From: Mycolicibacterium mucogenicum DSM 44124
GTDB lineage: Bacteria; Actinomycetota; Actinomycetes; Mycobacteriales; Mycobacteriaceae
Direction: 5' to 3'
NCBI RefSeq assembly: GCF_005670685.2
Contig: NZ_CP062008.1
Location: 3,162,001 to 3,226,000, forward strand
DNA: 64,000 bases
Shown: positions 20,761 through 24,191 of the stretch, one piece after another
Layout of the letters: every line of letters starts with the position of its first letter
Numbering within the stretch: the stretch's first letter is position 1
Notes under the pieces: generated by a model
The model's database searches: none
What the model was told of the DNA's origin: nothing
The model's input: the letters and a program-made list of their open reading frames with translations, nothing else
Translations under genes and position numbers: made by a program

Positions 20761-22020
20761 ATGTCCAGCACCGCAACGGCTTTCGATGTCGAGCCGTCGC
20801 CGTGCGAGCGTATGGATGCGTTCTTCGCCGAGATCGGTGAGCTGACCGGGCAGCGCAATGCGATCGACGCGCGGCTGGTGGAGATCGCGGCCGAGATGGA
20901 CCGTGACGGGCTCTGGGGTGCCACCGGCGCCCGGTCGATGGTGTCGTTGATGGCGTGGAAAACCGGTGTGTCACCGCGTAATGCGGAAGTCATGGTGGCG
21001 GTGGCGCACCGGCTGGAGGAATTTCCACGCTGCGCTGAGGCGATGCGCGCGGGCCGGTTGTCGCTTGACCAGGTCGGGGTGGTGGCCGAACACGCGGCCG
21101 ACGGTTCTGACGAGCACTACGCCCAGTTCGCCGAAAGCGCCACCGTCACCCAGCTGCGCACGGCGGTGAAGCTCGAACCGCGCCCGGAGCCCGAGCCCGA
21201 TTCGAAGCCCGAACCCGAGCGGTCGATCTCCAAGACCAGCCACGACGACGGCTCGGTCACCTACAAAATCCGGCTGCCGAAACTGGAAGCGGCGAAGGTC
21301 GATGCCGCGCTGGCCTCTCACCAGGATGCGTTGGTCGCGGACTGGAAACGCGACCACGACGCCGAAGGAGCTGTGTCGGAGGTGGCTCCGCCGTTCCCGA
21401 ACGGTGTGGATGCGTTCATGAGCGTGGTCGAAGCCGGCTGGGACGCCGACGTGGAACGTCGCCCGCATGGGCAGCACACCACCGTCGTCGTGCACATGAA
21501 CCTCGAACAGCGCACGGCCGCACTGCATGTGGGGTCGGTGCTGACCGATGAGGAACGCCGACTGCTGTTGTGCGATGCCACCTGCGAGGTGTGGTTGGAG
21601 CGGCACGGTCAGCCGATCGGCGCCGGACGGTCGACGCGCACCATCAGCCGCCGCCTGCGCCGCGCGCTGGAGCATCGCGACCGCTGCTGCCGCGTCCCCG
21701 GGTGCGGAGCCACCCGCGGCTTGCACGCCCACCACATCATCCACTGGGAGAACGGCGGGGCAACCGAACTGCACAACCTGGTGCTGGTGTGCCCGTACCA
21801 CCACCGCTTGCACCACAGAGGCATCATCACCATCACCGGACCGGCCGACCGGCTGGTCGTCACCGAAGCCGCAGGCCGCCAACTCGACGGTGGATCCCTC
21901 GCGCGACCACCCACCACAGCCCGTCCGGATGTTCCGCCGTGCCCCGGACCCACCGGGGAGCGCGCTCAATGGTGGTGGTACCAACCCTTCGAACCACCAC
22001 CAATACCGTCGACCAACTAG
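20761..22020 (+). CDS. DUF222 / HNH nuclease-domain protein (13E12 family)
   Basis: A 419-residue protein of the mycobacterial 13E12 repeat family. Residues ~15-130 and onward match the DUF222 layout (ARSMVSLMAWKTGVSPRNA, AMRAGRLSLDQVGVVAEHA). The C-terminal HNH module has CRVPGC, then HAHHIIHWENGG and LVCPYHHRLHH, the zinc and metal ligands of the His-Me finger nuclease fold. These genes occur in many copies in mycobacterial genomes and may be relics of, or hosts to, mobile elements; no terminal repeats are seen here. A proline-rich linker (PRPEPEPDSKPEPE) divides the domains. Biological role unknown. Confidence 0.88.
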   Translation: MSSTATAFDVEPSPCERMDAFFAEIGELTGQRNAIDARLVEIAAEMDRDGLWGATGARSMVSLMAWKTGVSPRNAEVMVAVAHRLEEFPRCAEAMRAGRLSLDQVGVVAEHAADGSDEHYAQFAESATVTQLRTAVKLEPRPEPEPDSKPEPERSISKTSHDDGSVTYKIRLPKLEAAKVDAALASHQDALVADWKRDHDAEGAVSEVAPPFPNGVDAFMSVVEAGWDADVERRPHGQHTTVVVHMNLEQRTAALHVGSVLTDEERRLLLCDATCEVWLERHGQPIGAGRSTRTISRRLRRALEHRDRCCRVPGCGATRGLHAHHIIHWENGGATELHNLVLVCPYHHRLHHRGIITITGPADRLVVTEAAGRQLDGGSLARPPTTARPDVPPCPGPTGERAQWWWYQPFEPPPIPSTN

Positions 22021-22055: not shown

Positions 22056-22622
22056 GTGAGGATCGAGACCTCACAAATGCCGGCGACGGAGCGTCTACTG
22101 GGTGTGAAAGACAAACCGCCATTCGAGACCGTGGTGCGCGACCACGGCCCCACGGTCTTTCGGGTGTGTTGCGCCGTCGTCGGTGAACACGACGCCGACG
22201 ACGCCTGGTCAGAGACGTTCCTGGCGGCCCTCAAGGCCTATCCCGATCTGCCGATCGACGCGAATTTCGAGGCATGGCTCGTGACCATCGCGCACCACAA
22301 GGCCATCGATATCACCAGAACCCGGACACGCCAGCCGATTCCCACCGACGTCGTACCCGAGCCGGCACGTCCCGGCGACGTCCGCGACTTCGACGATCTG
22401 GCGGCCGCCGTCGACGGGCTGCCACCCAAACAGAAGCACGCTGTGGCGTACCACTACCTCGCGGGCCTGCCCTACAACGAGATCGCCGAGATTCTCGGCG
22501 GCACCGCCGCGGCCGCACGCCGCGCCGCCAGCGACGGCATCGCCACGCTACGACGTACCTACCGCGGTGAACTTGTCGAGATCACCGCGCCGCTGCAGAC
22601 CGCAGGAGGGAGCCCGCAATGA
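22056..22622 (+). CDS. ECF-type RNA polymerase sigma factor
   Basis: A 188-residue group IV sigma factor. Region 2 spans FETVVRDHGPTVFRVCCAVVGEHDADDAW to FEAWLVTIAHHKAIDITRTR; region 4 is LPPKQKHAVAYHYLAGLPYNEIAEILGG with a recognition helix. The GTG at 22056 follows a TAGCAT box (22040-22045) by 10 nt; ATG 22077 is an alternative. Its stop overlaps the ogt start (ATGA), and three alkylation-repair-type genes follow in the same overlapping manner. It most likely drives this operon, replacing the AraC-type activator found in Ada systems. No anti-sigma gene is adjacent. Confidence 0.88.
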   Translation: MRIETSQMPATERLLGVKDKPPFETVVRDHGPTVFRVCCAVVGEHDADDAWSETFLAALKAYPDLPIDANFEAWLVTIAHHKAIDITRTRTRQPIPTDVVPEPARPGDVRDFDDLAAAVDGLPPKQKHAVAYHYLAGLPYNEIAEILGGTAAAARRAASDGIATLRRTYRGELVEITAPLQTAGGSPQ

Positions 22623-23233
22623 TCAACGGCGAAATCATCACCAACGACCTGACGCGCATCACCGACATCGGCCCGGACCGGCTCGGCGAACTGCACAATC
22701 GGCTGGCCGCCGCCGCCCAGCGCGACGGGGTGCTCGACGTCGCGTACCGCATCGTCGACAGTCCCGTCGGTCCGCTGCTGCTGGCGGCCACCGACCAGGG
22801 CCTGATCCGTGTCGCCTACGCCATCGAAGACCACGACGCCGTGCTGCAGCAGCTTGCCGACAAGGTGAGCCCGCGCATCCTGCGGGCCCCGGCCCGGCTC
22901 GACGCGGTCGCCCGTGAACTCGACGAGTACTTCACCCGGACCCGCCGAACCTTCGATGTACCGCTGGATTGGCGGCTGTCCGCCGGATTCCGCGCCGCGG
23001 TGCTGCATCACCTTCCGGAGATCGGCTACGGGCAGACGGCCAGCTATGCCACTGTCGCCGCGCTGGCCGGCAGCCCCAAGGCGGTCCGCGCTGTCGGCAC
23101 AGCATGCGCGAAAAACCCACTGCCCGTTGTAGTTCCGTGCCACCGGGTGGTTCGCAGCGACGGTGCGATGGGCGGCTACCTCGGTGGTCCGGAAGCCAAG
23201 CGTCTCCTGCTGGAGCTGGAGGCCGCAGCATGA
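22619..23233 (+). CDS. ogt: Methylated-DNA--protein-cysteine methyltransferase
   Basis: A 204-residue suicide repair protein that moves methyl groups from O6-alkylguanine to its own cysteine. The active site is VVPCHRV with Cys174, preceded by the helix-turn-helix-like segment GQTASYATVAALAG that inserts into the DNA minor groove. An N-terminal ribonuclease-like subdomain (DSPVGPLLLAATDQGLIRVAY) is present, with ~40 extra residues at the start. It overlaps the sigma factor upstream and the oxygenase downstream by 4 bp each. The gene is named for family; M. tuberculosis has a separate ogt elsewhere, so this may be a second copy. Confidence 0.93.
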   Translation: MINGEIITNDLTRITDIGPDRLGELHNRLAAAAQRDGVLDVAYRIVDSPVGPLLLAATDQGLIRVAYAIEDHDAVLQQLADKVSPRILRAPARLDAVARELDEYFTRTRRTFDVPLDWRLSAGFRAAVLHHLPEIGYGQTASYATVAALAGSPKAVRAVGTACAKNPLPVVVPCHRVVRSDGAMGGYLGGPEAKRLLLELEAAA

Positions 23234-23940
23234 GCGTCTGGCAGCAGCGCGTCGCCGCCACCGACTGGGGAGCCGTCCGCACCGAGCTCGAGACGGTCGG
23301 CGGCGCGCTGACCGGACCTCTCGTCACGGCTGCCGAGGCCGCCGAGCTGGCGGCGATCTACCCCGATACGAACCGATTCCGGTCGACCATCGACATGGCC
23401 CGCTACCGGTTCGGCGAAGGCCAGTACCGCTACTTCCACCGGCCCTACCCCGAGATCGTCACCGAGCTCAAGTACGCGCTGTACCCGCAGCTGCTGCCGA
23501 TCGCCCGGGACTGGTGGACGAGGCTGCGACGCGACCCGCCGTGGCCCGACAGTTTCGACGACTGGCTAGACACCTGCCACCGGGCCGGGCAGACGCGAAC
23601 CACCGCGCTGCTGCTCAAGTACGGCGCCGGCGGCTGGTGCGCCCTGCACCAGGATCTGTACGGGGACTTGGTCTTTCCGCTGCAGGTCGTCATCAACCTG
23701 ACGCGCCCGGAGGTCGACTACACCGGCGGCGAATTCCTGCTGTACGAGCAGCGGCCGCGCGCGCAGTCGCGCGGCTCGGCCATCTCCATCCCGTTCGGGC
23801 ACGGGCTGGTCATCACCACGCGCGAACGGCCGGTGGCATCGAAACGCGGGTGGGCCGTCGGCCCTGTGCGCCATGGCGTTTCGACCCTGCGCTCGGGAAA
23901 CCGGATGACGCTCGGCCTGATCTTCCACGACGCCGCATGA
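23230..23940 (+). CDS. 2-oxoglutarate/Fe(II) dioxygenase, probable repair oxygenase
   Basis: A 236-residue double-stranded beta-helix dioxygenase. Iron ligands are His140 and Asp142 in ALHQDLYG and His215 in VRHGVSTLRSGNRM; Arg225, ten residues on, can bind 2-oxoglutarate. The arrangement resembles AlkB-type oxygenases, which reverse alkyl lesions by oxidation, though overall similarity to AlkB itself looks low. It sits between ogt and the Ada-type zinc gene with 4-bp ATGA overlaps on both sides, which supports a DNA or RNA alkylation-repair role. Protein hydroxylase activity remains possible. Confidence 0.82.
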   Translation: MSVWQQRVAATDWGAVRTELETVGGALTGPLVTAAEAAELAAIYPDTNRFRSTIDMARYRFGEGQYRYFHRPYPEIVTELKYALYPQLLPIARDWWTRLRRDPPWPDSFDDWLDTCHRAGQTRTTALLLKYGAGGWCALHQDLYGDLVFPLQVVINLTRPEVDYTGGEFLLYEQRPRAQSRGSAISIPFGHGLVITTRERPVASKRGWAVGPVRHGVSTLRSGNRMTLGLIFHDAA

Positions 23941-24191
23941 CGACGTACACACTCGTCGATGCCGACGGCCGCCCCTATGCCAGCGCGACACCGGGGCGCT
24001 TGGGTGGCCATCGGGGTAACAAGCTGTACGGCAGGCTGGACTGCCCATCGGCGCTGCGCGCCATCGCCAAGGGCGGCTACGTGACCCATCGGGTGTTCTT
24101 CGCCGACGAAATCACTGCCACCGCTGCGGGATACCGCCCCTGCGCGGTGTGTCTGCCCGAGGGGTACCGGCAGTGGAAGGACGGGCACTGA
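23937..24191 (+). CDS. Stand-alone Ada-type zinc-binding domain
   Basis: An 84-residue protein that looks like the N-terminal domain of Ada, which takes methyl groups from DNA phosphotriesters on a zinc-bound Cys. YGRLDCPSAL (Cys36) and GYRPCAVCLPEGY (Cys69, Cys72) align with three of the four Ada zinc cysteines; the fourth is missing and His51 may substitute. It is the last gene of the sigma/ogt/oxygenase operon, overlapping by 4 bp. It may be a repair protein or an alkylation sensor for the sigma factor (inference). Confidence 0.75.
   Translation: MTTYTLVDADGRPYASATPGRLGGHRGNKLYGRLDCPSALRAIAKGGYVTHRVFFADEITATAAGYRPCAVCLPEGYRQWKDGH

Follow-up and report, generated by a model that had tools for sequence, protein, structure and literature searches.

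A candidate alkylation-repair operon of an ECF sigma factor in Mycolicibacterium mucogenicum, with an N-terminally extended Ogt as putative switch

A four-gene operon lies in the window, a stretch of 64,000 nucleotides (G000:C1:3162001-3226000) from the 6.1 Mb genome of Mycolicibacterium mucogenicum, a member of the Mycobacteriaceae. Comparison with related sequences points, with moderate confidence, to an autoregulated alkylation-repair operon in which methylation of the O6-alkylguanine-DNA alkyltransferase Ogt2 would be the most likely switch of an ECF sigma factor. The core of the system is the sigma factor together with an N-terminally extended Ogt. Enzymes of the Ogt type repair alkylated bases by a suicide reaction. 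In the proposed mechanism, the sigma factor would read the promoter YCTCACR-N16-CGTYTWC before its own gene, from which the sigma factor, Ogt2, a PF09859 oxygenase, and a small zinc protein would be made. Cys174 of Ogt2 would take a methyl group from damaged DNA, and this may alter its effect on the sigma factor, either by release or by activation. The freed or activated sigma factor would then amplify the operon, and newly made, unmethylated Ogt2 could shut it off. Alkylation as the signal and Ogt2 as its receiver are suggested by the precedent of Cada2, and induction by alkylating agents is assumed from the gene content.

The operon spans positions 22104-24191, entirely on the + strand, and its features are collected in Table 1. 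As the preliminary description of this DNA had stated, the four genes follow one another with ATGA overlaps (22619, 23230, and 23937). The sigma protein scores above the cut-offs of PF04542, PF08281, and PF04545, and has the small size and the regions 2 and 4 of an ECF factor. Its start had earlier been placed at 22056 and is moved here to the GTG codon at 22104, because 22056 and the ATG at 22077 lie before or inside the promoter. The absence of an adjacent anti-sigma gene holds in the window, where the sigma gene adjoins a DUF222-HNH gene and Ogt according to Pfam. Ogt2 carries both Ogt domains and the PCHR motif of an alkyltransferase, with the acceptor Cys174 (23138-23140) invariant in 25 aligned sequences. 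The earlier reading of the third gene as a 2OG-Fe(II) oxygenase with an HxD...H motif and a following Arg is likewise borne out by a PF09859 match of 249 bits (cut-off 26.2) and, in 57 aligned sequences, by invariant H140, H215, and R225 and at least 90% conservation of D142. Its closest named relatives among the matches listed come from Mycolicibacterium sp. and M. llatzerense (94-96% identity). The DUF222-HNH gene (20761-22020) immediately precedes the operon and is read in the same direction. It was considered as a part of the system and rejected; it is probably a local feature, since a relative stands near only 3 of the 147 sigma loci compared.

Table 1. Features of the operon, in positions of the window
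Feature	Position	Strand	Basis
ECF sigma factor	22104..22622	+	172 aa, GTG start; Pfam Sigma70_r2/r4; alignment
Ogt2, O6-alkylguanine-DNA alkyltransferase with N-terminal extension	22619..23233	+	Pfam PF01035/PF02870
Ogt2 N-terminal extension, ~38 aa	22619..22732	+	Profile; L..L..RL...A pattern
PF09859 2OG-Fe(II) oxygenase	23230..23940	+	Pfam, 249 bits; H140, D142, H215, R225
Stand-alone Ada N-domain-like zinc protein	23937..24191	+	Gly32 for acceptor Cys; C36, C69, C72 present
ECF-type promoter CCTCACA-N16-CGTCTAC	22069..22098	+	-35 at 22069-22075, -10 at 22092-22098; motif discovery

The sigma factor was found in 122 of 251 Mycobacteriaceae genomes (profile search, E 1e-30) and in 63 of 396 Actinomycetota genomes (E 1e-25). 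Within the family it is commoner than the oxygenase, as PF09859 occurs in 70 of the 251 sampled genomes. The genomes are related, so that these counts are not independent events. The set of 147 sigma loci is composed of the window, 7 named loci, 36 oxygenase-linked loci, 80 unlinked loci, and 23 loci of other families; the last were taken from 57 phylum matches outside the own genus, and six unlinked sigma-positive genomes of the family (G003, G093, G150, G226, G231, and G248) were left out.

Ogt lies directly downstream of the sigma gene at 144 of the 147 loci, with a 4-base overlap at 126 of these 144. The three exceptions are a contig end (L186), a degenerate copy (L095) whose genome also has an intact sigma-Ogt pair (L267), and a genome (G049, L256) whose extended Ogt gene lies away from the sigma gene and starts 5 nt after a copy of the same promoter. 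A strong Ogt2 profile match is present in 117 of the 122 sigma-positive genomes versus 2 of the 129 sigma-negative ones; five weak matches (G004, G053, G114, G169, and G231) were set aside, and with them the counts become 118/122 and 6/129. In two of the five sigma-positive genomes without a strong match, G055 and G209, the Ogt beside the sigma gene is broken into two parts (L269 and L270). The acceptor Cys in its CHR context is retained in all 144 sigma-linked Ogt2 proteins, one of which (L185) reads ACHR for PCHR. The N-terminal extension is a further mark of these proteins: its profile, built from Ogt2 itself, gives at least 26.9 bits in 144/144 of them, whereas among 71 upstream Ogt copies only 6 attain 10 bits (maximum 18.8), and the canonical Ogt of the own genome scores 5.6. 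Residues L25, R28, L29, and A33 of the extension are nearly invariant.

The related sigma loci share a conserved ECF-type promoter. An unsupervised dyad search returned it as the dominant motif: a single exact dyad occurred in 52 of the 117 non-redundant regions upstream, whereas no dyad exceeded 14 regions in five shuffled controls. A matrix was then built from 72 sites, trained exclusively on the regions upstream of sigma and ogt1 genes, and used in scans with variable spacing in which each base of deviation from the standard spacing cost 2 bits. A site was found at 145 of the 147 loci, all 145 scoring above the maximum of 882 mononucleotide shuffles; the scan found none at L196 and L095. 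The spacing is the same in 159 of 161 sites under this penalty. Narrower scans scored fewer loci, namely 102/147 with a fixed spacer and 117/147 with too short a region, having missed promoters that overlap the called sigma N-terminus or lie directly before the sigma gene. In the window the operon promoter has the top score (30.4, the next best being 12.8), and the single perfect match in the whole 6.1 Mb genome stands before the operon. A wider regulon based on one-mismatch matches in the own genome was rejected, since the reversed control gave 13 matches and the motif itself 9, including the perfect one. In 64 of the 107 sites close to a sigma gene, an in-frame start codon first appears 5 nt behind the -10 element; because of this position transcripts would start at or beside that codon, and the sigma mRNA is probably leaderless. 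The most diverged sigma group (L269-L281, excluding L273, L275, and the sigma-proximal stretch of L279) has CGACT as its -10 element, and promoter and sigma factor therefore diverge together.

The promoter and the pairing also bear on a simpler scheme, in which the sigma factor acts as an unregulated feed-forward amplifier, the switch lies in another regulator or in sigma abundance or stability, and Ogt2 is the main output enzyme only. The sigma gene has no adjoining anti-sigma, and transcriptional control and proteolysis are among the modes given for such ECF factors in the accessible part of PMC8999054. Furthermore, mean-field DCA on 143 sigma-Ogt2 pairs (Neff 73) yielded no coevolution signal above 12 within-clade permutations, and the linkage of Ogt2 may persist simply through its role as the main repair enzyme. 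Such a loop, however, would be self-igniting if nothing held it, because the top 25 upstream dyads resemble shifted forms of one sigma promoter. In addition, sigma factor and Ogt2 co-occur almost always, while only 62 of the 122 sigma-positive genomes have the oxygenase and 30 the zinc protein. On balance, we regard the unregulated amplifier as rather unlikely.

Oxygenase genes that are not led by a sigma gene provide an independent test of the promoter, because the matrix had learned from sigma and ogt1 upstream regions alone. In sigma-positive genomes a site precedes the oxygenase at 26 of 28 such loci, versus 0 of 8 in sigma-negative genomes. Twenty of the 26 sites lie within about 120 bases, and the scores range from 15.0 to 33.3. 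The two loci at which no site was found are L089, despite a sigma gene elsewhere in its genome, and L124, where the contig ends just upstream of the oxygenase gene. Among the loci of this test, L095 has a degenerate sigma copy upstream. At L097 and L098, the sigma-Ogt2 pair is divergent from an Ogt-oxygenase unit that has a promoter site of its own. A further 30 named loci (29 not labelled mycobacteria), assigned to neither the sigma-positive nor the sigma-negative group and counted in neither the 28 nor the 8, had no site in the 1.5 kb ahead of the oxygenase; three weak ones lie farther away.

The same dependence is seen genome-wide, with perfect promoter matches in 103 of 122 sigma-positive genomes (155 sites) versus 28 of 129 sigma-negative ones (32 sites); the reversed pattern gave 34 and 37 sites, respectively. 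Many of the 19 sigma-positive genomes with no perfect match belong to the diverged group g4. The zinc gene has its own promoter site at L128, and in G075 and G028 (L332 and L320) an additional, unlinked canonical Ogt stands behind the same promoter. Collectively, good comparative evidence points to a putative autoregulated regulon of the ECF sigma factor, and the earlier idea of a self-contained operon under its own sigma factor agrees with the single perfect match in the genome and with the sites in trans.

Other sites were judged separately. In two genomes, G001 (L337, L346, and L348) and G032 (L329 and L347), DUF222-like genes have a perfect promoter 5 nt before a GTG codon; Pfam confirms DUF222 for L346 and L329, and the proteins are presumably 13E12-like, to go by their resemblance. 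These genes, from one genus, look as if recruited to the alkylation regulon. Sites before nuoD or a small membrane protein (L344, L342, L333, L328, and L345) were not counted as targets, those before nuoD being likely conserved coding sequence, and no convincing gene was found behind the sites at L325 and L327. Finally, two further Ogt-domain genes exist in the genome, one in a canonical operon with an AdaA-AlkA fusion (C1:1388685-1390711) and the other, the third, at 4127333. This ada operon was rejected as a member of the regulon, the best scores being 2.8 there and -0.8 at the third Ogt gene.

The oxygenase accompanies the sigma-Ogt core in many genomes. In 69 further Mycobacteriaceae loci and 37 named loci, the arrangement of sigma factor, Ogt, and oxygenase recurs across several genera; the zinc gene may be present or absent, and a second Ogt frequently precedes the sigma gene. 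The families are thus linked in other actinobacteria far beyond chance, as a check proposed in the preliminary description had anticipated. The oxygenase looks broken, by an internal stop or as a fragment, in the sigma-bearing relatives L092, L133, and L137. The structural model of the protein (pLDDT 97) has a prolyl-4-hydroxylase-like fold, its closest solved folds being prolyl-4-hydroxylases, among them one in complex with EF-Tu. No hit to PF13532 (AlkB family) was obtained at E 0.001, and AlkB is absent among the 50 best fold matches listed, which does not exclude AlkB likeness. Ten PF09859 neighbour genes at eight loci comprise one of the AlkB family, three LysR/EAL regulators, and six with no Pfam match; the AlkB-family gene lies 9 bases after the PF09859 gene in a Pedobacter MAG (L046).

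With the fold nearest to prolyl-4-hydroxylases, the EF-Tu complex, and only one AlkB-family gene among these ten neighbours, the operon might instead answer another stress, such as nitrosative stress or damage to proteins, and the oxygenase might have a protein substrate. Such a role is improbable in view of the nearly invariant partner, an Ogt that repairs alkylated bases, and of the additional canonical Ogt behind the same promoter in two genomes. In the alkylation reading preferred here, the oxygenase would have a putative role in repair of, or protection against, alkyl damage, the oxidative dealkylation proposed earlier being a candidate activity.

The fourth gene had been described as encoding a stand-alone Ada-type zinc protein, and this stands as far as the fold is concerned: the protein has the Ada N-domain fold and matches the Ada zinc domain, PF02805, weakly (26.2 bits against a cut-off of 23). 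The methyl-acceptor Cys (Cys38 of E. coli Ada), however, is replaced by Gly32 (24030-24032), and of the four-Cys zinc site C36, C69, and C72 remain. Gly32 is invariant in 33 aligned zinc-protein sequences, an alignment that left out 10 of 43 Ada-like rows, including the acceptor-bearing L045 and L066. In all 43 rows the acceptor position is Gly in 41, the exceptions being L045 and L066 (Ada-type protein). L045, an Acidobacteria contig (41-1663), encodes a fragment of sigma region 4, a fusion of Ogt with an Ada-type domain, and a PF09859 oxygenase. Its Ada-type domain keeps the acceptor Cys, and the acceptor is therefore not lost everywhere in such loci. A genome-wide profile search found the zinc protein in 30 of the 122 sigma-positive genomes and did not find it in 92; the oxygenase is present in 31 of 32 genomes with the zinc protein.

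The missing acceptor Cys deprives the phosphotriester methyl acceptance formerly ascribed to this protein of its support. The zinc protein had also been proposed as the sensor, which would bind alkylated DNA and free or recruit the sigma factor. It has the fold of the Ada regulatory domain, it is co-transcribed with the sigma factor here, and in L045 Ogt is fused to an Ada-type domain with the acceptor Cys. However, Gly stands for the acceptor Cys in all 33 aligned members, and the absence of the protein from the profile matches in three quarters of the sigma-positive genomes differs from the extended Ogt, found in 117 of 122. A function as sensor or Ada-type phosphotriester acceptor is therefore unlikely, because Gly replaces the acceptor Cys, and the sensor scheme as a whole is the most improbable of the alternatives weighed. 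The Cys38-to-Gly form of Ada is constitutively active. The zinc protein could be locked in a comparable form and may serve as a DNA-binding partner of the oxygenase.

To our knowledge, the regulator itself is the methyl acceptor in the adaptive responses of Ada, AdaA, and Cada2. The present operon resembles E. coli Ada and the mycobacterial AdaA-AlkA and Ogt operon in its Ada-type N-domain fold, its Ogt, and its alkylation-repair genes, but it has neither an AraC-type domain nor an acceptor Cys in the N-domain. The earlier view that the sigma factor takes the place of the AraC part of Ada does not hold, as the canonical operon coexists in the same genome, where it has no sigma promoter. In M. 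tuberculosis treated with MNNG, only alkA and ogt changed, according to the accessible part of PMC5057432. The precedent is Cada2 of Caulobacter, in which, as far as the available text of PMC10957082 describes it, the methylated PCHR Cys of the Ogt domain is the activating switch, the C267A variant being dead and C267G constitutive. The likeness extends to the PCHR Cys of the Ogt domain as candidate switch, to autoregulation, and to a regulon with a 2OG-Fe(II) dioxygenase. In that account (PMC10957082), however, Cada2 is a single polypeptide that includes DNA-binding domains of its own, whereas the present system divides putative sensor and output between two proteins, with a sigma factor as the output. 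The single-chain combination of B-box, RLHD, and Ogt domain typical of Cada2 is not found in Ogt2, which consists of the Ogt domains and ~38 aa.

As to the family of the sigma factor, group ECF122 goes back to a classification that is presumably that of Casas-Pastor 2021. In the accessible part of PMC8999054, ECF122 appears as an ECF group with no anti-sigma, with 6-O-methylguanine DNA methyltransferases nearby, with an actinobacterial representative (Cellulomonas, WP_057211282.1), and with its mechanism listed as unknown. The adjacent Ogt at nearly all sigma loci (144/147) and the lack of an anti-sigma among the window neighbours match this description, and judged by it only, the sigma factor is apparently an ECF122 member. 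The pairing of sigma factor and Ogt was thus already catalogued, apparently as ECF122, which corrects the earlier remark that no described system of this layout was known; the promoter, autoregulation, the trans regulon, the oxygenase, and the zinc protein are added by the present analysis. ECF41 is similar in its promoter (TGTCACA-n16-CGTC) and in that the neighbouring genes are the sole targets there, but it has a fused C-terminal regulatory domain, an extension not present in our sigma factor (PMC3426412, as far as accessible). The literature searched, whose coverage leaves out most subscription papers, gave no description of the promoter, the regulon, or the acceptor-less zinc protein.

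A more complete scheme can be offered tentatively, as possible rather than probable: a split adaptive response, in which the suicide enzyme Ogt2 doubles as a methylation-operated regulator of the sigma factor and the acceptor-less zinc protein brings the oxygenase to DNA. Each repair event would then both fix the DNA and spend one Ogt2 molecule that holds the sigma factor in check. Unlike in Ada, AdaA, and Cada2, the output is a sigma factor and the proposed acceptor a separate enzyme. If this is true, ECF122-type sigma factors would gain a signal, a promoter, and a regulon, and the restraint of an ECF sigma factor with no anti-sigma would become tractable with two proteins and one promoter.
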